From: Candidatus Nitrosomarinus catalina | Lineage (GTDB): Archaea; Thermoproteota; Nitrososphaeria; Nitrososphaerales; Nitrosopumilaceae | Direction: 5' to 3' | NCBI RefSeq assembly: GCF_002156965.1 | Contig: NZ_CP021324.1 | Location: 282,988-346,987 of the forward strand | DNA length: 64,000 nt | Shown here: positions 49,283 through 62,120 of the stretch, piece after piece | Position numbering within the stretch: the stretch's first letter is position 1 | Layout of the letters: every line of letters begins with the position of its first letter | Position numbers and translations under genes: made by a program | The notes under the pieces: model-generated | Told to the model about the DNA's origin: nothing | The model's input: only the letters and a program-made list of their open reading frames with translations | The model's database searches: none

Positions 49283-49956
49283 ATTCCGTGAATTGATTCC
49301 CCGTATTCCTTTTCTATTTTAGAACTAGAGCTTTCTGGAATAGGTGATTGCAATCTGGCAACTTTTGCATCTAACTTGATTTTTTTACATCCTTCTGTAA
49401 TGAATTGTTCTTGATGAACTTGATCATATCCTAATGCAATAATTTGTGGTTTAACTAAATTAACTGTTTTAAAAATATCATTTTCTTGTCCAATTAAACA
49501 TAAATCTACTACAGATAATGAATTAACTAATTCTTGTCTTTGTTCCTGACTGTGAATGGGTCTTCTTTTTTTCATTTTTACAGCTGTATTGTCTGTGGCT
49601 ACAACCACAACTAAGACATCTCCCAATGCCTTAGCTGCATTTAATGTAGAAATATGGCCTGGATGTATGATGTCAAATACTCCTCCTGCTAATACTACTC
49701 GTAATGACTCCCTGCCCATTTCAGTTAATGTCATTTCATCTTGATTAACTAAATTATCTTGGGTTAGTTTTTCCATTTTTTCAGAAATTTGTTTTTCTGA
49801 AATCATATTATTTTGTAAAATTTTCTCTATGGGATTTTCTCCTGTAATCTCACTTAGATATAATGTTGATAAGATCTTATTTTCAATTTGTTTCAATGTT
49901 TTTTTACCTTTTGACCTACTCTTTAATTTATTGATAATATTACATTTTAAATTCAA
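49279..49956 (-). CDS. ribL: FAD synthetase-like nucleotidyltransferase (RibL)
   Basis: 225 residues. A nucleotidyltransferase domain with VLAGGVFDIIHPGHISTL (HPGH at 98-101) and KMKKRRPIHSQEQR follows an N-terminal helical domain of about 85 residues that looks like a winged helix. The archaeal RibL adenylates FMN to FAD; the adjacency to ribK supports this. The start overlaps the end of dph5 by 17 bases; the first 20 residues are Lys-rich and the true start may be later. Confidence 0.8.
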   Translation of the reverse strand: MNLKCNIINKLKSRSKGKKTLKQIENKILSTLYLSEITGENPIEKILQNNMISEKQISEKMEKLTQDNLVNQDEMTLTEMGRESLRVVLAGGVFDIIHPGHISTLNAAKALGDVLVVVVATDNTAVKMKKRRPIHSQEQRQELVNSLSVVDLCLIGQENDIFKTVNLVKPQIIALGYDQVHQEQFITEGCKKIKLDAKVARLQSPIPESSSSKIEKEYGESIHGI

Positions 49957-50977
49957 GGCCTTTTGCTAATCTTAGTGCATCTACTAACCCATCAGCATAC
50001 CCAATGCTTAAAATCGCATTCTCATCTCGACCTTCACCTAGAAATATCTCTGCATCCTTAATGTATCGTTCAGCATTATCCAAAATTATTTCAAATTCTT
50101 TTTGATTTTTATAAAGCGGTTCAATTTCTTCTAGTGCTTCTCTAACCATTGGCACATATTTTTTCATCATTTGATTTGAAATTTTTTCTGTTTTTTCAGA
50201 ATTATCAAATGGTTCATCAATACATTTTCCAAATAATTTTAATGCATCTGATTCTGTAAAATGTAATCTACCTGGAATGATGATTGTATGTGGTGGTTTT
50301 CCAAAATCTGTTTCTTTCAAACTAGATATTTTTCCACAAACAATTGCTTGATCTTTAAAACCTATTCTTGATGCAATAATTACATAATTTGATTCTGTAA
50401 TCACATTTCTTGTTTGACCTTGCTCAGTTTCCAATAACCCTTTTAATGCATCCTTAGGATCCAAGAAAAATTTTTTGTCTTGATTATATTCTAACAAAAG
50501 TACTGTGTGATTACCTTCAATCAAATTTTTATAAATTACATAATATGGTGTTGTAAGTGATTTCATTTCACTCATTATTGTTGCAATTCTTCCAATTTTG
50601 TAAAAATGTAAACCACATTCTCCAATCATTGATGTCAATGATGATGAAGCATGGATTGAATGTGTTTTAATTTTATTTTCAATTGCTCTTGCTCTTAATT
50701 CGATATGTGTTGTTGCAATGTATGGATCCCCGTATGCTAATAAAACCACGTTTTTTTCTTTTGACATTTCTAAAATTTCATTTCCATCTTCAACTAACCA
50801 TCTTTTAGCCAGCTTGAATTCACCTTTGATTGAATCTTGAATTTTTTTTAAATCTGATTCGCTAATGGGACTAGTAAATTGTTCTAAATACACAATGTCT
50901 GCAGTTGAAATTGTTTCTAATCCTTCAATAGGGATTGATTCAAACCCTGATATTCCTAAACCTACAAACGATAACAT
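49940..50977 (-). CDS. dph5: diphthine synthase Dph5
   Basis: Methylates the modified His of elongation factor 2 on the way to diphthamide. The family N-terminus LSFVGLGISGFESIP, the SAM-contact region LLAYGDPYIATTHIEL and IIPGRLHFTESDALK are present. At 345 residues it exceeds the usual 260-290; the extra is a C-terminal helical domain of about 70 residues (YVPMVREALEEIEPLYKNQK onwards). The start overlaps the lysK stop by one base (TAATG), so it is made with the amino-acid genes. Confidence 0.92.
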   Translation of the reverse strand: MLSFVGLGISGFESIPIEGLETISTADIVYLEQFTSPISESDLKKIQDSIKGEFKLAKRWLVEDGNEILEMSKEKNVVLLAYGDPYIATTHIELRARAIENKIKTHSIHASSSLTSMIGECGLHFYKIGRIATIMSEMKSLTTPYYVIYKNLIEGNHTVLLLEYNQDKKFFLDPKDALKGLLETEQGQTRNVITESNYVIIASRIGFKDQAIVCGKISSLKETDFGKPPHTIIIPGRLHFTESDALKLFGKCIDEPFDNSEKTEKISNQMMKKYVPMVREALEEIEPLYKNQKEFEIILDNAERYIKDAEIFLGEGRDENAILSIGYADGLVDALRLAKGLEFKM

Positions 50978-52104
50978 TATTGCAATTTTTTATCATGTAG
51001 CCTTTTTAAATGCTGTAGAGTAGCTTTGAAAATTTCTATTCCTTTAAGATATTCCTCAATCGAAACTTTTTCATCAATTGTATGTGCTTCGTGAGGATCT
51101 CCTGGACCATATGTTACAACTGGAATTTCCCACTGATTTCCTAAAACATTCATGTCTCCAGTACCTGTTTTTCGAATTAATGTTGGTCTTGATTTCTCCA
51201 CTTGCATAATTCCTAAAGTAAATGCTCTTACTAATGATGAATTATGAGGTGCTTCAAATGGTTCAGTCTCATCTAAAATTGAATAAAATGCATCTACTTC
51301 TCTTTCTTGAGAGATTTCTTTAACTAGTGTTGCAATTTTTTGTTCAATGCTTTTACAATTCATATCTACTGGAATTCTGATGTCAAAAAGAGTTTCACAT
51401 TCTTTGGGGGTAATATTATGACTTGTTCCTCCTTTAATTTCTGTCATTGTTGCTGTTAACAACATTCCTTTTGTCTTATCTTCTTGATTAGCTTCTAGTT
51501 TTTCTTTTAATTTTTTAACAAATATCATTGATTCTTCAATTGCGTTTTTTGAAAGCCATGGCGCACTAGCATGAGAACTATCTGCAGCACTAATTTTTAG
51601 TTTGATTGCTAATCTTCCTTTGTAAGCAATTGTCACTTGTTTGATTCCACTTGGTTCTCCAAATACTGCATAATCTATATCCATTTTCTTTTTTACAATA
51701 TTTTTAATTCCTACTGCATTTCCTTCTTCGTCCACAGCTCCTACAAAAGTAACAGTCCCTTGATTTTTTTCAATTGATGCAGCTGCAAAAAGCATTGCCA
51801 TTAATGGTGCTTTGGCATCAGAAGCACCGCGACCATAAAGTGAATCTCCTTCTTTTCTGACTTTAACTTTTCCTGGAACTACATCCATATGTCCACATAA
51901 CATGATTTTTGGTGAACCTGAACCTTTCTTTGCAATAATGTTCCCAACTTCATCAATTTGTATATCTTCAAATCCTAAATCATCGCATTTATCAGCTAAA
52001 AATTCTGCCATTGGTCTTTCACTAAGTGATGGTGTGTATAGTCGAAGTGCTTTTTCCAGCATTTTTGTTGCAAATTTTGGTGTTACCGTGAAATGGGTGT
52101 TCAA
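50977..52104 (-). CDS. lysK: LysW-lysine/ornithine hydrolase (LysK)
   Basis: M20-family metallopeptidase, 375 residues. Zinc ligands are H72 and D97 with catalytic D74 (LCGHMDVVPG and GRGASDAKAP), then DEEGNAVG and the C-terminal DPHEAHTIDEKVSI. LysK releases lysine or ornithine from the LysW carrier. It is the only gene of its kind here, so it should serve both the lysine and arginine branches. The lysX stop is two bases upstream. Confidence 0.9.
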   Translation of the reverse strand: MNTHFTVTPKFATKMLEKALRLYTPSLSERPMAEFLADKCDDLGFEDIQIDEVGNIIAKKGSGSPKIMLCGHMDVVPGKVKVRKEGDSLYGRGASDAKAPLMAMLFAAASIEKNQGTVTFVGAVDEEGNAVGIKNIVKKKMDIDYAVFGEPSGIKQVTIAYKGRLAIKLKISAADSSHASAPWLSKNAIEESMIFVKKLKEKLEANQEDKTKGMLLTATMTEIKGGTSHNITPKECETLFDIRIPVDMNCKSIEQKIATLVKEISQEREVDAFYSILDETEPFEAPHNSSLVRAFTLGIMQVEKSRPTLIRKTGTGDMNVLGNQWEIPVVTYGPGDPHEAHTIDEKVSIEEYLKGIEIFKATLQHLKRLHDKKLQ

Positions 52105-52106
52105 CT

Positions 52107-52949
52107 TTATCGTTCTACTTTCATTGCGTAATCCAGCATTAGAGAAGGTATGTCTACGTCACATACTCTTACAGTGTTTTTGTATTCTGTTGTATTGTTA
52201 ACTTCATGAACCACTAACCCTTTTTCTTCACTTTCCATTAAATCTACACCTACAATATCTCCTTGTACAGCTTGTTTTGCTTTGATACACATTTCTTCCA
52301 TTTCTTGTGTAACTTTGCATGGTTCAGCAATTCCACCTAATGCCATGTTTGTTTTCCAATGTTCTGATTTTCTATATATTGCAGCAACTATTTTGTCTCC
52401 TACCATAATAGCTCTGATATCTCTTGGAGGTCTTTTTACAAATTCTTCTAAATAATGAATTTGGTAAATTGGATACATAGTTTCTCTACTTTCAATAATT
52501 CCTTCTGCTGAATCTTTGTCATTTAGTTTTGAAATTAACCTGCCCCAACTACCGACTGTTGGTTTTATAACTTTTGGATATCCATCTGTTTCTAATGCTT
52601 GAATAGCTGCATCCTTTGAAAATGCCACTGTTGCATCTGGTGTTGGAACACCTGATTTTTTTAGTAACATATGTGTGAATAATTTATTTCCTGCAAAAAC
52701 TCCTGTGTTTAAACAATTGATTACTTTAACTCCCATTCCTTCAAGAGCTGCTGTTGAATGTAAATTTCTGTAATAACTCACACATCGTTGAATAACTACT
52801 CCGTAATCTTCGGGTTTTTTTTCTAAATCTAAAGCAAGTTTTTTACAATCAACCATCTGTATGTTGATGTCCTTTTTTTTACCTGCTTCTAGTAGAGCTT
52901 TTTCTTCCCAACGTATGGAATCGTAAAGAATTGTAACATCAGGATTCAC
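52107..52949 (-). CDS. lysX: LysW ligase, lysine branch (LysX type)
   Basis: RimK-like ATP-grasp enzyme that attaches the amino group of 2-aminoadipate to LysW. The family start DVTILYDSIRWEEKALLEAG and the ATP-grasp PKVIKPTVGSWGRLISKLND are clear. Near the C-terminus, VHEVNNTTEYKNTVRV resembles the LysX of Thermus more than the paralogue at 59767. GTG at 52949 overlaps the lysW stop as GTGA; a TTG at 52958 is also possible. Substrate is inferred from motif and neighbours. Confidence 0.88.
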   Translation of the reverse strand: MNPDVTILYDSIRWEEKALLEAGKKKDINIQMVDCKKLALDLEKKPEDYGVVIQRCVSYYRNLHSTAALEGMGVKVINCLNTGVFAGNKLFTHMLLKKSGVPTPDATVAFSKDAAIQALETDGYPKVIKPTVGSWGRLISKLNDKDSAEGIIESRETMYPIYQIHYLEEFVKRPPRDIRAIMVGDKIVAAIYRKSEHWKTNMALGGIAEPCKVTQEMEEMCIKAKQAVQGDIVGVDLMESEEKGLVVHEVNNTTEYKNTVRVCDVDIPSLMLDYAMKVER

Positions 52950-53113
52950 TGGCCCCAATCCTCGCCAACTGTTTGAGCAGGCTTTAGATCAAAACCATCT
53001 GAACCTTTTGCTAATTCAAAACTTGCGCCACATTCGGGACATGTTACAATTTCTCCTTCAAGTGCATCACTTGGTATTGAGATATCTGCATCACATTCTT
53101 CACATTTTGACAT
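52946..53113 (-). CDS. lysW: LysW carrier protein, lysine-side copy, ending in Gln
   Basis: 55 residues: zinc ribbon CEECD and CPECG (C4, C7, C25, C28), a helical region, and the conserved tail VGEDWG. In characterised LysW proteins the last residue is Glu, whose side-chain carboxyl bonds to the amino acid. Here the last codon is CAG (Gln), so the tail is EDWGQ. The reading of the last 24 bases is unambiguous in this sequence. It lies 22 bases after the homocitrate synthase gene, just ahead of lysX. Confidence 0.9.
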   Translation of the reverse strand: MSKCEECDADISIPSDALEGEIVTCPECGASFELAKGSDGFDLKPAQTVGEDWGQ

Positions 53114-53135: not shown

Positions 53136-54302
53136 TTATTTATCTTCAATAATCTTTTTTTCGAGTCTATCTTCAAGTGGGATTTCTATTAGATCTCCCA
53201 TTCTGAGATTTTTTAGCCCTGATGCAACTGCTTTTGCACCTATGTCGTCTTTTTCTAATCCTAATAATGACATCAAATAAGCTGCACCTGTTTTTCCTGC
53301 TAATTCTCCAAATACAATTCGTCTCCTATTTCCTACAGCTCTTGGTGGAATTGGCTCATATGCTGCTGGATTGCGTAGAATTGCTGCAAGGTGTGTGCCT
53401 GCTTTGTGTTTGTATGCAGCTGAACCAACAATTGGTTTTGAATCATACGGTTTGATTTCTGTATAATCTTCAATTAGTTTTGATAAATCCAATAGCATAT
53501 CTAATCTAAAATCATTTGGTGATTTATACAAGTAAGTCAATGCTACTGCTACTTCTGCAAGTGGTGGAATTCCTGTTCTTTCACCAATTCCATCAATAGT
53601 TGTATGAATTTGATCAACACCTGCATCACAAGCTGAAAATGCATTTGCAACAGCAAATCCTATATCATTATGTACATGTGCATCTAATGGTACATCTACT
53701 ACTTCTCTAACTTTCTTTACAAAGTTAAACATTCCAATTGGACGTAAAATTCCTACTGTATCTGGTAGACTTATTCTATCTACTCCTGCTTCTTCAATTG
53801 CTTTACAAACTTTAAGTAAAAATTCTGGTTCTGCTCTGCTACCATCTTCTACTGTAAATCTAATTTTTAATCCATGTGATTTTGCATATTCTACAGTTTC
53901 TACAGCTCTTTCTAATGCTTCTTCTCTTGATATTCGAAGTTTATCTTTAAGATGTATGTCTGATATTCCTAAATATGCTGCACACCATTTTGCATCACAA
54001 TCTAATGAAACATCAATGTCTTGTTTAAGTGCACGACCATGTGAAACTATATCTGCTGTTAATCCTTGTTTGATAATTGTTTTAGTTGCTTCTTGATGAT
54101 CTTTTGAGACTACTGGAGAAATTTCAATTTGATCAACTCCAAAATAATCTAACATCCATGCAATCTGAATTCTTTGTTTATTTGTAAATGAAACACCTGG
54201 ATGTTGTTCACCTTCTCTTAATGTACTATCTAATACTCTAATTTTTTTTGGATTTTTTTCATATGCATTGTAGATATTTGCATAGTGATTCGGATCTTTC
54301 AT
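53136..54302 (-). CDS. homocitrate synthase-like enzyme
   Basis: A 388-residue DRE-TIM enzyme of the isopropylmalate/homocitrate/citramalate synthase group. The signature DSTLREGEQHPGVSF holds D25, R29 and E30; metal His residues are in DAHVHNDIGFA. It lacks the C-terminal regulatory domain of leucine-type synthases. Position upstream of lysW-lysX-lysK favours homocitrate synthase, the first enzyme of the aminoadipate lysine route. A citramalate or isopropylmalate role cannot be excluded from sequence alone. Confidence 0.8.
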   Translation of the reverse strand: MKDPNHYANIYNAYEKNPKKIRVLDSTLREGEQHPGVSFTNKQRIQIAWMLDYFGVDQIEISPVVSKDHQEATKTIIKQGLTADIVSHGRALKQDIDVSLDCDAKWCAAYLGISDIHLKDKLRISREEALERAVETVEYAKSHGLKIRFTVEDGSRAEPEFLLKVCKAIEEAGVDRISLPDTVGILRPIGMFNFVKKVREVVDVPLDAHVHNDIGFAVANAFSACDAGVDQIHTTIDGIGERTGIPPLAEVAVALTYLYKSPNDFRLDMLLDLSKLIEDYTEIKPYDSKPIVGSAAYKHKAGTHLAAILRNPAAYEPIPPRAVGNRRRIVFGELAGKTGAAYLMSLLGLEKDDIGAKAVASGLKNLRMGDLIEIPLEDRLEKKIIEDK

Positions 54303-54420
54303 TACTAAATTCGTTAAACAAAATTGATGATATAAACATATTCGTACTATTTTCGTTGGAAATATTTTTAATTGATCCTAAATTAGTTTTGAATTAAATT
54401 TTTGAAACGAAACTCGTTTT
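54303..54420 (-). promoter_or_regulatory. promoter region of the homocitrate synthase gene
   Basis: On the minus strand a TATA-like TTTATA (54331-54336) lies about 30 bases before the ATG, so the message is nearly leaderless. An inverted repeat AAACGA-AAC-TCGTTT (54405-54419) overlaps the end of the Lrp gene. AACGA cores recur near 54310 and 54352 on the minus strand. This is an internal promoter within the operon and a possible Lrp target. Confidence 0.35.
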
Positions 54421-54838
54421 ACGCAACTTTTCTTAAAATTATTACAGTATTGGTATCTACTACTCCAGAAATTTTTCTTAAAGCATCAATACTGTTATTA
54501 ATTTCTGCAATACTTGAACCACTCATTATTGTTGTAATATCGTATTGTCCTGTTATTTCATAAACTGTTTTTACTCCTTCTAGTTTAGCAAGTTTTGCTG
54601 AAACTTTTGATGTGTCTGTAGCAGAATCGACTGATACTAAAACAATTGCACTTGTAACATTATCTTCTCCAATTTCAATTGTAAATTTACTAATTGTTTT
54701 ACTGTCTACTAAATTTTTAACCCTTCGTCTAACTGCTGATTCTGAAAGTTTAAGTTTTTTCCCAATATCTACAAATGATTCTCTTGAATCCTCTTTAAGA
54801 TATCCTATTATTTTTTCATCTATTTTATCCTTATACAT
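54419..54838 (-). CDS. Lrp/AsnC-family regulator (LysM-like)
   Basis: 139 residues: an N-terminal helix-turn-helix (KIIGYLKEDSRESFVDIG, LSESAVRRRVKNLVD) and a C-terminal RAM ligand-binding domain (SAIVLVSVDSATD, TVYEITGQYDITTIM). Its place between lysJ and the homocitrate synthase gene matches LysM in Sulfolobus, which controls lysine genes in response to lysine. The start overlaps lysJ by eight bases. Confidence 0.88.
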   Translation of the reverse strand: MYKDKIDEKIIGYLKEDSRESFVDIGKKLKLSESAVRRRVKNLVDSKTISKFTIEIGEDNVTSAIVLVSVDSATDTSKVSAKLAKLEGVKTVYEITGQYDITTIMSGSSIAEINNSIDALRKISGVVDTNTVIILRKVA

Positions 54839-56012
54839 TTCTCTTTTCTTCCTCTTTAGTTAATACAACATCTAAAGCATGTAAAACTTTTGTTACATCC
54901 TCTTCTTTAATTACTAAAGGTGGTAATATTCTGAGAATATTTCGTCCTGAGTACAACATTAAAACACCTTCTTCAATTAATCCCATCAAAATATCTTTTA
55001 CTTCAAATTTCATTTCAACTCCAATCATTAGTCCTTTTCCTCTTACTTCTCTGATCATTGTGTGTTTTTCTTTTAATTTTTCCAACCCTTCTCTAAAAAT
55101 TTCTCCCATTTTTTTGGAATTTTCAATTAAGCCATCTTCTGTTAATGATGTTAGTGCTGCAATTCCTGCTGCACAAGATATTGGATTACCTCCAAATGTT
55201 GATGAGTGTTCTCCTTTACTTATGGCAGCTAAAATACCTGGTTTAACTAATGTAGCACCCATTGGCACTCCTCCTGCAATTCCTTTTGCCAAACATAAGA
55301 TATCTGGAACTGTATTCCAGTGTTCGCCAGCCCATAATCGTCCTGTTCTTCCTAATCCTGCTTGAATTTCGTCAAAAACTAATAAGATTCCTTTTTCATC
55401 ACATAATTTTCTAACTTCTTGTAAAAATCCGTCTGGGGCAACTACAATACCACTTTCACCCTGAATTGGTTCTAAAATAATTAAAGCTGTATCTTCATCA
55501 ATAGCAGAACGTAGCGAATCCATATCTCCAAATGATGCAAAAGTAACTTTTTCAACCAATGGTGCAAATGCTTTTCTATATTTTGGATTAAATGTTAATG
55601 ACAATGCTCCAAATGATTTTCCATGATATGATCCTTTCATTGCAACCATTCCTTTCTTTCCAGTAAACTTTCTTGCAAATTTCATTGCAGCTTCAACGGC
55701 TTCTGCACCACTATTGTTTAGATGTACTTGTGTTAATCCTTCTGGAGCTATTTCGATAAGTTTTTTCAAAAATCCTTCTCGTGTTTTATTGTATAATGAA
55801 CTATGTACTGTAATTATTTTATCAACTTGTTCTTTTATTGCTTTGTTAACTCTTTGATTTTGATGTCCAACTAATGCGACACCATATCCTCCCATACAAT
55901 CGATATACTCTTTTCCTTCTATGTCCCATACATGTGCATCCACACCTTTTTCAATTGTAACTGGAAATCTCTGATAGAGATTACCCATATGTTGATCTTC
56001 ACTCATGTTCAA
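54831..56012 (-). CDS. lysJ: LysW-aminoadipate semialdehyde/glutamate semialdehyde aminotransferase
   Basis: Class III PLP aminotransferase of 393 residues. The cofactor Lys is K243 in LCLAKGIAGGVPMGA, and VFDEIQAGLGRTG holds the Asp that contacts PLP. It transaminates LysW-bound semialdehydes to the lysine or ornithine form. It overlaps lysZ by 14 bases and lrp by eight bases. Confidence 0.9.
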   Translation of the reverse strand: MNMSEDQHMGNLYQRFPVTIEKGVDAHVWDIEGKEYIDCMGGYGVALVGHQNQRVNKAIKEQVDKIITVHSSLYNKTREGFLKKLIEIAPEGLTQVHLNNSGAEAVEAAMKFARKFTGKKGMVAMKGSYHGKSFGALSLTFNPKYRKAFAPLVEKVTFASFGDMDSLRSAIDEDTALIILEPIQGESGIVVAPDGFLQEVRKLCDEKGILLVFDEIQAGLGRTGRLWAGEHWNTVPDILCLAKGIAGGVPMGATLVKPGILAAISKGEHSSTFGGNPISCAAGIAALTSLTEDGLIENSKKMGEIFREGLEKLKEKHTMIREVRGKGLMIGVEMKFEVKDILMGLIEEGVLMLYSGRNILRILPPLVIKEEDVTKVLHALDVVLTKEEEKRNV

Positions 56013-56802
56013 TCACCGTACAATTATCGTGTGCAATAGCTGTTGAAATAGGATTCTCTTTTTGACCATTTGCAATAAAAGCTTGTTTTACACCCATATC
56101 TAGTGCTTCAGTTGAAGCTAAAATCTTTTTTTCCATACCTGGACCTATTTTAGGTCTAATTTCTTTTGCTTCAGCTAATGTTAATTTTGGAACAACTTTA
56201 TCTTCCATTAATAGTCCGTCTACGTTTGTTATGAATAATACTTTGTCACTTTTTACACTTCCAGCCACATATGCCGCAGCCCTGTCTCCATCTATGTTAA
56301 GAAATTCTGATTCCTCACTAATTGCAATTGGAGAAATAACTGGTGTTAGTCCTTTTTCTAATAATGATTTTATAAATTCTGAATTTACATTCTTAATTTT
56401 TCCTGTATATCCTCCATCAATTGCTTGTTTTCTGCCCTTTTCATTCATGATTATGAGTTTCTTTTTTCTGTCGGCTTCAATGACTCTCGCATCTACACCT
56501 GATAACCCAATTGCATTAATTCCATTTTTTTGAAGCATCTGGACAATTGTTTTATTAATTCTACCTGACATAACCATGGTAAAAATTTCCGCAGTTTCCT
56601 TGTCTGTATATCGACTTTTAATTCCACTCGGTGAAGTTACAAATTTAGGTTCTTTTCCCAATTGTTCACATACTTTTGTAACTTCTTTTCCTCCACCATG
56701 AACAATTATGATGCCTTCCGTTTCTGCAATTTTTTTAATGTCTGAAATTGTTGATTGATGTAAATCATCTACAACACTTCCGCCAATTTTAATCGTAATC
56801 AT
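55999..56802 (-). CDS. lysZ: LysW-aminoadipate/glutamate kinase
   Basis: An amino-acid kinase fold of 267 residues: IKIGGSVVDD at the N-terminus, IIVHGGGKEV, then the nucleotide part NIDGDRAAAYVAGSVKSDK. It phosphorylates the side-chain carboxyl of LysW-linked aminoadipate or glutamate. Relatives that act on acetylglutamate (ArgB) have the same layout; the LysW context decides the call. It sits two bases after lysY. Confidence 0.9.
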   Translation of the reverse strand: MITIKIGGSVVDDLHQSTISDIKKIAETEGIIIVHGGGKEVTKVCEQLGKEPKFVTSPSGIKSRYTDKETAEIFTMVMSGRINKTIVQMLQKNGINAIGLSGVDARVIEADRKKKLIIMNEKGRKQAIDGGYTGKIKNVNSEFIKSLLEKGLTPVISPIAISEESEFLNIDGDRAAAYVAGSVKSDKVLFITNVDGLLMEDKVVPKLTLAEAKEIRPKIGPGMEKKILASTEALDMGVKQAFIANGQKENPISTAIAHDNCTVIEHE

Positions 56803-56804
56803 TT

Positions 56805-57851
56805 CTAAACCGGAGTTAATGGAGTATATCTTAATCCACTCATTTCATCAAAACCACACATAACATTCATGTTTTGAATTGCAGAACCTGCTGCACCTTT
56901 CATTAAATTATCTGATGCTGACAAAGCAATTAATCTATTATTATCTTCATCAAAATCAAATCCAATATCACAAAAGTTTGAACCTACTAAGAATTTTGGA
57001 TCTGGGAATTTGTAAAGTCCTTTTTTATCTCTAATTAATCTGATAAATTTTTCATCACCATAAGCTTCACGATATATTTTCCATAATTCTTTTTGTTCCA
57101 TATCTTTTTTCAAAAATGTGTGGTTTGTACATAAAATTCCTCTAACAACATCCACTGCATGTGGACTCATTGATACTTTGATTTTACTTCCTGCAATTTC
57201 ACTTAACTCTTGTTCAATTTCACCTGTGTGTCTGTGTTTTGCTGGTTTGTATGGTCTGATTACTCCTGCACGCATTGCATGTGCTGTTCCTGAACCTGAA
57301 CCTGCACCAGATGAACCAATTTTTGAATCTACAATTATGTGATCTGTATCAATGAGGTCATTTTTAATTAATGGTGCAAGTGCCAGTGTTGATGTTACTG
57401 CCATACATCCTGGACAAGAAACAAGTTGTGCTTTTTTAATTTCTTCTCTATGTAATTCTGGAACACCAAAAACTGACTTTTCTAAATAATCTGGATGTGG
57501 GTGTGTCCAACCATACCATTTATCATATGCTTCTTGATTATGTAATCTATAATCTGCACTTAAGTCGATTATCTTGATTCCTCTATCGTATAATGCTTTT
57601 ACAATTTCTGTTGCAGTTCCATGGGGCACTGCTGTGAATACTACATCACAATTATCAGTTAATTTGTCGTAATCTAACTCCGAAAAGGTTAGATCTGTGA
57701 ATCCTTTCAAACTAGGTTGAACTCTGTGTAGATATTCGCCAACATGTTGTCTTGAAGTTACTGTGGTGATCTCAACCTCAGGGTGGTTTACAAGAAGACG
57801 AAGTGTTTCTCCCCCTACATATCCTGATGCTCCTACAACTCCTACTTTCAT
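56805..57851 (-). CDS. lysY: LysW-aminoadipyl/glutamyl phosphate reductase
   Basis: 348-residue ArgC-family reductase. The NADP site is VGVVGASGYVGGETLRLL, the catalytic Cys149 is in SCPGCMAVT, and the His in MSPHAVDVVRG is present. It reduces the LysW-bound acyl phosphate to the semialdehyde. First gene of the operon; the frame extends to 57866, but the Met at 57851 gives the normal start. The 148-base space to the divergent deoxyhypusine synthase gene holds both promoters. Confidence 0.9.
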   Translation of the reverse strand: MKVGVVGASGYVGGETLRLLVNHPEVEITTVTSRQHVGEYLHRVQPSLKGFTDLTFSELDYDKLTDNCDVVFTAVPHGTATEIVKALYDRGIKIIDLSADYRLHNQEAYDKWYGWTHPHPDYLEKSVFGVPELHREEIKKAQLVSCPGCMAVTSTLALAPLIKNDLIDTDHIIVDSKIGSSGAGSGSGTAHAMRAGVIRPYKPAKHRHTGEIEQELSEIAGSKIKVSMSPHAVDVVRGILCTNHTFLKKDMEQKELWKIYREAYGDEKFIRLIRDKKGLYKFPDPKFLVGSNFCDIGFDFDEDNNRLIALSASDNLMKGAAGSAIQNMNVMCGFDEMSGLRYTPLTPV

Positions 57852-58014
57852 GATAAATCTCATCAAAAGTAGTATAATTTATCTTGTTATATTGAACCTT
57901 GATTGTTGAATTTTTTTATTTAAACAGAGGCTATATCTGGAAATTTTTTAATCTTATTTCATAAAATTTCTATTTTTAAAATAAATTTATAGGAAGTCTG
58001 ACAAATATGCTCTT

Positions 58015-58959: not shown

Positions 58960-59055
58960 TGATTTTTTATATTTTTTATTTTTGAATTTTTAAAGATTAA
59001 TGATGTTTTTTAATGCAACTTTTTATTCTTACATTTGGAAATAATTGTAACTATT

Positions 59056-59406
59056 ATGTTTCCTAAAACTATCTTAACTTCTATTTTTCTATTTGTAATT
59101 GCTGGATTGTTGGAAATTGGTGGTGGTTACCTTGTATGGTTGTGGTTAAGACATGACTTTAGTTGGATGTTGGGTGCATTAGGTGGATTTGTCTTATTTC
59201 TTTACGGTGTAGTTCCAACATTTCAAAAAACTCATTTTCATAGGATCTATGCTGCATACGGTGGCGTGTTTATTGTAATGTCTGTTTTTTGGGGATGGTT
59301 AATTGATGGAATAATCCCTGACCAATATGAAATAATTGGAACAATAATTGCGGTAATTGGAATTTTAATAATTTTCTATATTCCTAGAAAAGGAGAAAAA
59401 ATTTGA
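59056..59406 (+). CDS. UPF0060 (YnfA-like) membrane protein 1
   Basis: 116 residues and four membrane helices. The family phrases are IAGLLEIGGGYLVWLWLR, YGVVPTFQ, IYAAYGGVFIVMSVFWGWLIDG and IIGTIIAVIGILIIF. The ATG at 59056 gives a normal N-terminus; a TTG at 59035 adds seven residues. It overlaps the next paralogue by four bases, so the two are made together. UPF0060 is a relative of small multidrug-resistance transporters, with no proven substrate here. Confidence 0.85.
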   Translation: MFPKTILTSIFLFVIAGLLEIGGGYLVWLWLRHDFSWMLGALGGFVLFLYGVVPTFQKTHFHRIYAAYGGVFIVMSVFWGWLIDGIIPDQYEIIGTIIAVIGILIIFYIPRKGEKI

Positions 59407-59732
59407 TTGACACAATAAGTTCTTTGGGACTTTTCTTTTTTGCAGCTTTATTGGAAATAACAGGTGGATATTTAATTTGGAGATGGTTAAAAAATCATCA
59501 AGGAAAAATTCTTGGATTAGTTGGGGGATTAATTTTATTTTCATATGGTATAATCATGACTTTTCAGCCTGAAAATTTTGGAAAAGTATATGCTGCATAC
59601 GGTGGATTTTTTGTGATATCCTCTTTATTCTGGGGTTATTGGATAGATAAGAAAAAACCTGATAAATTTGAAATCATTGGTTCTGTTGTGGTCTTGATTG
59701 GTGTTGCAGTAATATTTTATTTTCCTAGATGA
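59403..59732 (+). CDS. UPF0060 (YnfA-like) membrane protein 2
   Basis: 109 residues, clearly a paralogue of the preceding gene (LLEITGGYLIWRWLKN, VYAAYGGFFVISSLFWGYWIDK). It starts with a TTG that overlaps the stop of the first gene (TTGA). Two overlapping, diverged copies of a four-helix transporter-like protein are a pattern seen in paired small multidrug-resistance proteins that work as heterodimers with opposite topology. Confidence 0.85.
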   Translation: MIDTISSLGLFFFAALLEITGGYLIWRWLKNHQGKILGLVGGLILFSYGIIMTFQPENFGKVYAAYGGFFVISSLFWGYWIDKKKPDKFEIIGSVVVLIGVAVIFYFPR

Positions 59733-59766: not shown

Positions 59767-60624
59767 TTATTTTCTGGCATAATCTAAGGCAAATTCAATC
59801 ATTTCTCTTGGTATGTTTCTTTTAGCAACTTTTGCTAATCCTTTGAATTCTACTGTATTATTTACTTCGTGAACTACTATTCCTTTTTCTTCATCTTCCA
59901 TCATATCTATTCCTAAAATTCCTCCTCCCATAGCTTTTGATGCTTTAATTGCCATCTCTTCCATTTCTTTTGTAATCTCACAAATTTCAGGGTCTGCACC
60001 TAAAGCAATATTTGTTTTAAATCCACCTGATGATTTTCTATACATTCCTGCAATTGGTTGATCTCCTATTGTAATTATTCTGATATCTCTTGGAGGTCTT
60101 TTAACAACTTCTTGTAAATAATAAATTCTATCATGTGGACTATCCGTAATTTCTCTTACTTCTACAATTCCATCCATCGTGTCCTTATCTTTAATTGCCA
60201 TTACTCCTCTTCCCCAACTACCAATTACTGGTTTGATAACTAATGGATATCCTACATTTTCTAAATTCTCAGATGCACTTTCACTTGAAAATGAAAAATA
60301 TGTTTTAGGTGTTGGGATATTATTTTTTTTCAATAATAGTGTCATGAACATTTTGTTTCCACAAATACTTGCAACATCAAATTTGTTTAATACTGGAATA
60401 TCTAAAAATTCTAAAGCTGATGTAAAATGAAGACCTCTGAAATAACTAACACATCTCTCTAAAACTACATCGCCTAAATCTAAATCCTCTTTTTTAGTAT
60501 CTGTATTGATTTGTGTAATTTTGGCATCCAACATTTCTGTGGAATGTCCTAATTCGGCGGCTTCCTTTTGGAGCATTTTTTCTTCCGTTCTTAAACGGTC
60601 AAAAACAATGCTGATTTTTGACAT
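59767..60624 (-). CDS. argX: LysW ligase, arginine branch (ArgX type)
   Basis: 285-residue RimK-like ATP-grasp paralogue of the ligase at 52107 (shared PLVIKPVIGSWGRGVMAI, KRPPRDIRIITIGD, GIDMMEDEEKGIVVHEVNN). At the substrate-contact region it reads TVEFKGLAKV, unlike the LysX-type TTEYKNTVRV, which is consistent with use of glutamate. It is downstream of argG and a LysW with a normal Glu end; its ATG overlaps the lysW stop by one base (TAATG). Confidence 0.85.
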   Translation of the reverse strand: MSKISIVFDRLRTEEKMLQKEAAELGHSTEMLDAKITQINTDTKKEDLDLGDVVLERCVSYFRGLHFTSALEFLDIPVLNKFDVASICGNKMFMTLLLKKNNIPTPKTYFSFSSESASENLENVGYPLVIKPVIGSWGRGVMAIKDKDTMDGIVEVREITDSPHDRIYYLQEVVKRPPRDIRIITIGDQPIAGMYRKSSGGFKTNIALGADPEICEITKEMEEMAIKASKAMGGGILGIDMMEDEEKGIVVHEVNNTVEFKGLAKVAKRNIPREMIEFALDYARK

Positions 60625-60791
60625 TACTCTCCCCAGTCTTCGCCTACGCTTTCTGCTTCTTTGAGCTCAATGTTTGATCCTTCTTTTTTAGAAATCTCAT
60701 AATCAGCTCCACAATCAGCACAAGAGACTATTTCTCCTACTGCGGCATCTTCTGGGATATTGAGTTTTGCGTCACATTCTGGACAGTTCAT
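60624..60791 (-). CDS. lysW: LysW carrier protein, arginine-side copy, ending in Glu
   Basis: 55 residues with zinc ribbon CPECD and CADCG (C3, C6, C24, C27) and the standard tail VGEDWGE, whose last Glu is the attachment residue. The sequence differs clearly from the other LysW in the window in the middle. The start overlaps the argG stop (ATGA) and the end overlaps argX, so the three are one operon devoted to arginine. Confidence 0.92.
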   Translation of the reverse strand: MNCPECDAKLNIPEDAAVGEIVSCADCGADYEISKKEGSNIELKEAESVGEDWGE

Positions 60792-61987
60792 GTTTTTGAT
60801 TTCCTTTTCTTTTGTAATTTATTAGCTTCCGTTGATTGGATTCCCCATAATTCAACGAATCCTTTGGCTAATCTTTGGTCAAATGTGGATTCTACCCCAT
60901 AAGTGGCAATATCGTGACTGTACAATGAATTTTTTGATTTTCTTCCTACGACTCTTAAACTTCCTTTATATAATTTCAATTTGACAGTACCTGAAACTGG
61001 TTTTTGTGATTTTTCAATAAAACCATCTAGATCTGTTTTAAGTGGATCTTGCCAAAGTCCTGAATACACTAAATGAGACCATTCATCGTCAATAATTGAT
61101 TTAAATTTATTTTCGTGTTTTGTATGTACCATTTTTTCTAAATCTGCATGTGCTTCAATTAGACAAGTAGCTGCCGGTGTTTCATAGACTTCACGTGATT
61201 TAATTCCCACAACTCTATCTTCAATATGATCTATTATTCCAACACCTGCTGCACCAGCTTTTTTGTTGATGTATTCAATTATTTTTTGAGAACCTTTTAC
61301 TTTCCCATCCACTTCTATTGGTACTCCTTTATCGAATTTAATTTCTAGATAAGTTGGTTTATCTGGTAAGTCTTTTGTTTTAACCCAAATGAAAGCATCA
61401 TCTGGTGGTTCGTTATATGGATCTTCTAAAACTCCTCCTTCAATTGCACGTCCCCATAAATTCTGATCAATACTAAATTTTTTAGCAACTGAATCAATTT
61501 CAATTCCGTGTTTATTTGCAAATTTTAATTCTGTATCTCTATCTAAATTTTTATCACGAATTGGTGCAATAATTGGAAGATCCGAACCTGAACGTAATGT
61601 AATATCAAAACGCACTTGATCATTTCCTTTACCTGAACAACCGTGTGCTAACGAAGTAACTTTTTCTTTTTTTGCAATCTCTAAAACTTTTTCTGCAATT
61701 AATGGTCTTGCAAGAGCTGTTGCTAAACAATATTTTTTTTGATAAAGTGCATTTGCTTTAATTGCTGGGAATATGTAATCATCAACAAATTCTTTTCTTG
61801 CATCGATATTGTAGTGTTTTTTAACTCCTAATTTTTTTGCTTTTGTTGCAATTTTTTTTGCATCATCCCCTTGACCTACATCCACAGTAACTGTGATTAC
61901 TTCCATGTCGTGTTCTTCTTGCAAGTATTTCACAACAACTGATGTATCTAATCCTCCTGAGAATGCTAAAATTCCTTTTTGAGTCAT
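60788..61987 (-). CDS. argG: argininosuccinate synthase
   Basis: Joins citrulline and aspartate. The N-type ATP pyrophosphatase motif is AFSGGLDTSV, and SLAHGCSGKGNDQVRFD and DQNLWGRAIEGG are family segments. Starting at the Met at 61987 gives 399 residues, as usual; the frame continues upstream to 62038. It is the first gene of the argG-lysW-argX operon, which places the second carrier in arginine synthesis. No argH is in the window. Confidence 0.95.
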   Translation of the reverse strand: MTQKGILAFSGGLDTSVVVKYLQEEHDMEVITVTVDVGQGDDAKKIATKAKKLGVKKHYNIDARKEFVDDYIFPAIKANALYQKKYCLATALARPLIAEKVLEIAKKEKVTSLAHGCSGKGNDQVRFDITLRSGSDLPIIAPIRDKNLDRDTELKFANKHGIEIDSVAKKFSIDQNLWGRAIEGGVLEDPYNEPPDDAFIWVKTKDLPDKPTYLEIKFDKGVPIEVDGKVKGSQKIIEYINKKAGAAGVGIIDHIEDRVVGIKSREVYETPAATCLIEAHADLEKMVHTKHENKFKSIIDDEWSHLVYSGLWQDPLKTDLDGFIEKSQKPVSGTVKLKLYKGSLRVVGRKSKNSLYSHDIATYGVESTFDQRLAKGFVELWGIQSTEANKLQKKRKSKT

Positions 61988-62120
61988 AAAACAATATTTC
62001 CGTAGCATTTTGGAATTTATCTTTTGTGTTGTGCCCATTTTTCCATTTTTTTACAAAAAATTACGACTAGCTTGAGCTAAAATTCGATGATTATTTAACC
62101 GCCGAATATAACGCTGTTTT

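Follow-up and report, generated by a model that had tools for sequence, protein, structure and literature searches.

A LysW carrier protein encoded with a C-terminal glutamine in ammonia-oxidizing archaea and its probable maturation by deamidation

The two lysW loci

The window, a stretch of 64,000 nucleotides from Candidatus Nitrosomarinus catalina, carries two lysW genes on its reverse strand, one on the lysine side and one on the arginine side (Table 1). The surroundings of LysW were read as long stretches in about 62 genomes and the commonest layout is argG-lysW-argX-lysY-lysZ-lysJ-regulator-synthase-lysW-lysX-lysK. At its 3' end on the reverse strand the lysine-side lysW reads ...GGC GAG GAT TGG GGC CAG TGA, with CAG at 52951-52949 and the stop codon at 52948-52946, giving the protein tail ...VGEDWG-Q-stop. 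The overlap with lysX is 4 bases (GTGA), the GTG start of lysX lying at 52949. Either C or G can stand at the first position of the final lysW codon with lysX unaffected. The EDWGQ tail (CAG then TGA), the retention of EDWGE in the copy of the argG operon (60624-60791, reverse strand) and the overlap by lysX had all been described in the original prediction and are confirmed.

Both copies in the window exceed the cut-off of the archaeal LysW profile NF041070 in a profile search and the zinc-ribbon cysteines of the lysine-side protein are present (CEEC...CPEC); with 31.3 bits this protein missed the cut-off of 53.2 of the older equivalog TIGR01206. A LysW/ArgW carrier is expected in an operon with a LysX-family ligase bearing the GSWGR motif together with LysK, LysZ, LysY and LysJ, and this is the arrangement found. 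In standard LysW the substrate is bonded to the gamma-carboxyl of a C-terminal Glu; the residue encoded here is Gln, and because of this the lysine-side LysW of the window is, as encoded, a variant and not standard LysW.

Table 1. Features of the LysW loci in the window
Feature	Position	Strand	Evidence or remark
dphB-like (diphthine-synthase-like) gene	49940..50977		after lysK
lysK, M20 [LysW]-lysine/ornithine hydrolase, candidate deamidase	50977..52104	(-)	TIGR01902 280 bits vs 163
lysX, ATP-grasp ligase	52107..52949	(-)	GTG start; TIGR02144 332.9 bits vs 275.6; GSWGR motif
lysW (lysine side)	52946..53113	(-)	zinc ribbon CxxC-CxxC, tail EDWGQ; NF041070 89.2 bits vs cut-off 75
CAG codon for terminal Gln, where attachment Glu expected	52949..52951	(-)	kept in relatives
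homocitrate/isopropylmalate-synthase-like gene, upstream of lysW	53136..54302	(-)	profile search
Lrp/AsnC-type regulator, LysM-like	54419..54838	(-)	NF040947 178.7 bits vs 180, just under cut-off
lysJ aminotransferase	54831..56012	(-)	argD subfamily above cut-off; synteny
lysZ, [LysW]-aminoadipate/[LysW]-glutamate kinase	55999..56802	(-)	NF010662 310.8 bits vs 194
lysY reductase, ArgC-like	56805..57866	(-)	TIGR01850 above cut-off
two tandem similar small membrane proteins	59035..59732		between both LysW operons
argX, second LysX-family ligase	59767..60624	(-)	TIGR02144 291 bits; in arginine-side ligase clade
lysW/argW (arginine side)	60624..60791	(-)	tail EDWGE; NF041070 87.9 bits
argG, upstream of arginine-side lysW	60788..62038	(-)	ORF content and synteny

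The source genome has one copy of lysK, whose product has [LysW]-lysine hydrolase 5xoy as its top PDB match (E 6e-55), and lysJ, the sole copy seen in LysW loci, is presumably common to both LysW. The synthase-like gene falls below the cut-offs of both the LysS/homocitrate synthase and the isopropylmalate synthase models; the profile does not settle its substrate, whether or not it is called homocitrate synthase. In ammonia oxidizers (f1, f3) the dphB-like gene follows lysK; the other families read showed no such gene at that place.

Distribution of glutamine and glutamate tails

Within the class, a DNA pattern for EDWG-Gln-stop matched 211 of 300 genomes and one for EDWG-Glu-stop 233 of 300, reversed-pattern controls in the same genomes giving 0 matches for the Gln pattern and 1 for the Glu pattern; by this count the Gln tail is found in 67 of the 72 genomes of the source genus. 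The last residue of 180 LysW read in 138 genomes was Gln in 101 cases, Glu in 79 and nothing else. When any residue was allowed after GEDWG, the count per genome across the 300, compared by eye, equalled that of Gln plus Glu except for one extra match in G201, a genome with only one LysW.

The original prediction had assigned Gln to the lysine copy and Glu to the arginine copy, and this holds for most of the source genome's own family (Nitrosopumilaceae by named matches); it is reversed in two other genera (g29 and g35 of f3, with Glu on the lysine and Gln on the arginine side) and absent elsewhere, and for this reason the residue does not mark the side of the pathway. Genus g7 has Gln on both sides and genomes G077, G220 and G260 have Glu on both, whilst g25 has Gln on the lysine and Glu on the arginine side, g24, g27, g45 and g47 have two LysW that are both Gln, and g23 and g40 have one LysW only, on the lysine side, with Gln. 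Named records show that Nitrosocosmicus shares both the layout and the LysW sequence type of g23 and that Nitrososphaera has g27-type LysW with Gln in both copies; other Nitrososphaeraceae genera also have two LysW, both with Gln. Genomes of the Nitrosocosmicus type combine a single Gln-tailed LysW with a complete set of LysX, ArgX, LysY, LysZ, LysJ and LysK. Only Glu tails were found in the sampled families f4 and f6-f20, and class families other than ammonia oxidizers that possess LysK have Glu throughout.

Copies have also been lost. Arginine-side lysW is missing, with argX directly after argG, at L160 and L163-L166 (g23, Nitrosocosmicus type), L253, L292 and L319, and at such loci the lone lysine-side Gln LysW must serve both ligases. 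The reverse loss is seen at L133 (G132, f1 g11), which has no lysW between synthase and lysX and where the arginine-side Glu copy remains alone. Arginine-side Gln tails occur in own-family genomes of the sponge-symbiont type (L192 and L193 of f1 g7, and L287 of Cenarchaeum sp. PNGst), and at L192 and L193 a second, arginine-type lysW lies away from any ligase seen.

In a sample of the phylum Thermoproteota Gln tails were also present in families f30, f35, f53 and f56, identity as LysW being confirmed by reading the protein. Both residues occur in f30/g104 (Glu in G355, G389 and G434; Gln in G409 and G429) and in f53/g120 (Glu in G382; Gln in G417), the Glu matches in both genera being to the tail pattern only. 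Further Gln tails come from named records: two Jordarchaeia genomes, each with one lysWXYZJK cluster, archaeon UBA55 and an Undinarchaeales genome. As in Nitrosocosmicus, Gln-type LysW is the only type in f35 and f30 Thermoproteota that keep the full pathway. An oddity confined to ammonia oxidizers, or a deamidase specific to them, is weakened as an explanation since other archaeal groups also show Gln tails. No bacterial LysW with a Gln tail was found among the matches listed; EDWGQ-pattern matches in bacteria (Fimbriimonadaceae, Anaerolineae, Streptacidiphilus and others) and in G327 are chance occurrences and not LysW.

Some of these loci have further peculiarities. At L214-L221 and L223 (f30, f35) the Gln-type LysW is without one zinc-ribbon cysteine (FEHEECG or FEHQDCG), a three-Cys form like that of Sulfolobus LysW. 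One LysW is flanked by two LysX-family genes in f30 g77, and the LysX of archaeon UBA55 (L317:1205-2047), next to a Gln-type LysW, has GSWAR in place of GSWGR.

Switching between the two residues and selection

Among missense changes from GAG about 1 in 7 to 13 gives Gln, and the probability of ten switches all leading to Gln by chance is p < 4e-9, assuming that at most 1 in 7 GAG missense changes does so. Repeated switching between Glu and Gln, with no other residue appearing, means, as far as can be judged from the sequences, that a side-chain C=O would be required, amide and acid being equivalent over the long run. Ligase trees split cleanly into lysine-side and arginine-side clades and require a minimum of 7 Glu-Gln changes in the former and 2 in the latter (at least 9 in all). 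The mean number of C-G changes at lysX four-fold sites on the same trees was 2.8 and 3.4, and the exchange of Glu and Gln is not clearly slower than this neutral change, although the comparison is rough, the tail base always being C or G and the four-fold sites often A or T.

EDWGE in related genomes at this locus had been named as an observation that would count against the prediction, and it does occur in four genomes assigned by label to the source genus (G077, G220, G293 and G260), where it is a matter of switching and not of error. G077, G220 and G293 form one clade inside the genus (support 98, in a tree whose within-genus branch supports are moderate), and G260, listed in the source genus, falls outside it in the ligase tree.

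The dN/dS of Gln-type lysW is 0.026 in the source genus, 0.019 in the Nitrosocosmicus type and 0.048-0.050 in the Nitrososphaera type. Values of this order indicate that the Gln genes are under strong purifying selection and point to the Gln form as a working carrier; a dead copy is excluded because dN/dS is low and Gln-only genomes keep the pathway, provided that they have no other lysine or arginine route. In haloarchaeal ArgW a change of the tail Glu to Ala abolishes arginine synthesis and causes arginine auxotrophy (PMC10433800).

A probable precursor form and its proposed deamidation

The GSWGR motif of the ligase recognises EDWGE (PMC10433800), and it is present in 97 of 97 aligned ligase partners of Gln-tailed LysW. 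No column of the LysX alignment tracks the tail, and the top differences in lysine-side LysX between tail types are at variable positions. Co-adaptation of LysX to the tail was rejected, the differences on the arginine side being lineage marks of Nitrososphaeraceae; a sole Glu-tailed member, G081, appears to have the LysX residues of its Gln-tailed relatives. A LysK-family hydrolase was found in 19 of 19 genomes searched; the matches in the Undinarchaeales genome and in UBA55 stayed under the curated cut-off. The ammonia oxidizers tested have one LysK each, except Nitrosocaldaceae, which have a second, weaker M20 match. As LysK is single, one hydrolase must release the products from both Glu and Gln carriers, and since the downstream enzymes of the pathway are also present in one copy each in the LysW loci read, identical conjugates are favoured, i.e. 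Gln would first become Glu.

The reading best supported by these observations is that the protein is a genuine LysW carrier made as a Gln precursor, deamidated and then used normally, with LysK the likeliest converter, and as a whole this is judged reasonably probable. The side-chain amide of the C-terminal Gln would be hydrolysed to give Glu. Unchanged LysX or ArgX would link the gamma-carboxyl of this Glu to aminoadipate or glutamate through the amino group of the latter, and LysZ, LysY, LysJ and LysK would then process the conjugate as usual. The deamidation step itself is likely; it appears the simplest explanation and the best fit to the exclusive exchange of Glu and Gln and to the unchanged ligase, and it is the one of the three options originally put forward (deamidation, other chemistry or a non-carrier) that fits best. 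LysK as the deamidating agent is a more tentative proposal. LysK hydrolyses LysW-gamma-glutamyl-lysine or -ornithine and LysW-Gln is, chemically, LysW-gamma-glutamyl amide; LysK is the best candidate because it already cleaves a gamma-glutamyl amide of which LysW-Gln is the version with ammonia. It would remove ammonia, a smaller leaving group, from the same gamma-amide, and one cleavage per LysW molecule would suffice because the carrier would be recycled as Glu. In its strongest form, which is rather doubtful, the proposal has LysX add free ammonia to LysW-Glu as well; Glu and Gln tails would then interconvert wherever cells are rich in ammonia, and which of the two is encoded would be neutral.

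Several points count against this reading. The families with LysK and only Glu outside the ammonia oxidizers are not accounted for by pure neutrality, and the pairing of lysine-side Gln with arginine-side Glu is nearly constant in the own family; the LysK of Gln lineages may not differ from that of Glu-only lineages, and LysK may depend on the lysine or ornithine moiety for cleavage.

A separate deamidase (a nitrilase, an amidase or another enzyme) could make the Glu without LysK and would explain the same pattern of Glu and Gln. Such an enzyme would have to be widespread, given the Gln tails in Thermoproteota f30, f35, f53 and f56, in Jordarchaeia and in Undinarchaea-type genomes, and this alternative is considered rather unlikely. 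Two candidates were rejected: CheD, a protein-glutamine deamidase, occurs in just 5 of the 21 genomes tested and is missing from the source genome, from G044 and from several Gln-only genomes, Nitrosocosmicus among them, and Dop/PafA (PF03136) was found in 0 of 21 genomes, a Corynebacterium control being positive. It is improbable that LysX uses the Gln tail directly, either by transamidation with release of ammonia or by bonding through the alpha-carboxyl. Direct use would need no separate converting enzyme, and LysX is a relative of RimK, whose enzymes are annotated as alpha-L-glutamate ligases, but the residues of LysX do not follow the tail, an alpha-carboxyl bond should tolerate other end residues whereas Glu and Gln alone are found, and the apparent sharing of LysZ, LysY, LysJ and LysK by both carriers in one genome favours identical conjugates.

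That the Gln-type LysW carries no substrate, the Glu copy serving both pathways, is very improbable. Most of the own family does have a Glu copy beside the Gln copy, and Sulfolobus uses one LysW for both pathways (PMC10433800), but the single LysW of Nitrosocosmicus is Gln and both copies are Gln in Nitrososphaera and other Nitrososphaeraceae genera; this option of the original prediction is contradicted by Gln-only genomes with a complete pathway and by the very low dN/dS of Gln copies (0.02-0.05), unless Gln-only organisms use another lysine or arginine route. A sequencing or assembly error has practically no standing, as the same codon recurs in hundreds of independent genomes, single-contig ones included, and more than 12 independent genomes hold a LysW identical to that of the window across all 55 residues.

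Comparison with known systems

Many archaea depend for their lysine and arginine synthesis on one residue of LysW, the terminal Glu, and metabolic models of ammonia oxidizers presume the standard mechanism. An encoded Gln that recurs across archaea, sometimes as the sole form, suggests a maturation step that has gone unreported, and raises the question of what converts LysW-Gln to a working carrier and whether LysK is a Dop-like enzyme with two jobs. No mention of EDWGQ or of a LysW C-terminal glutamine was found in the open-access literature, although subscription journals may hold one, and to our knowledge there is no study of LysK acting on LysW-Gln with ammonia as the leaving group.

The proteins described here resemble the known LysW/ArgW carriers (NF041070; LysW of Thermus, Sulfolobus and Thermococcus and haloarchaeal ArgW) in size, in the four-Cys zinc ribbon, in the EDWG tail, in an operon with a LysX-type ligase and in synteny with lysYZJK, but differ in that the last residue is an encoded Gln, which lacks the side-chain carboxyl to which substrate is bonded. 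The LysK of the window is like that of PDB 5xoy and should cleave LysW-gamma-Glu-Lys.

The closest parallel is actinobacterial pupylation, in which Dop deamidates Pup-Gln and also cleaves the isopeptide (PMC8599861). In both systems a small carrier has a terminal Glu that forms a gamma-amide with an amine, lineages differ in whether Gln or Glu is encoded, and an enzyme of the pathway hydrolyses the same gamma-amide. They differ in that there is no sequence relation; Dop, absent here, is glutamine-synthetase-like and LysK is an M20 metallohydrolase; the cargo of LysW is a metabolite and that of Pup a protein, and deamidation has been shown for Pup and is inferred for LysW. That LysK, unrelated to Dop, deamidates LysW-Gln and so represents a second, independently evolved enzyme that both activates and discharges its carrier is a rather doubtful proposition, whilst by analogy LysW-Gln would work like a deamidated carrier of the Pup/Dop type without being a member of that system.
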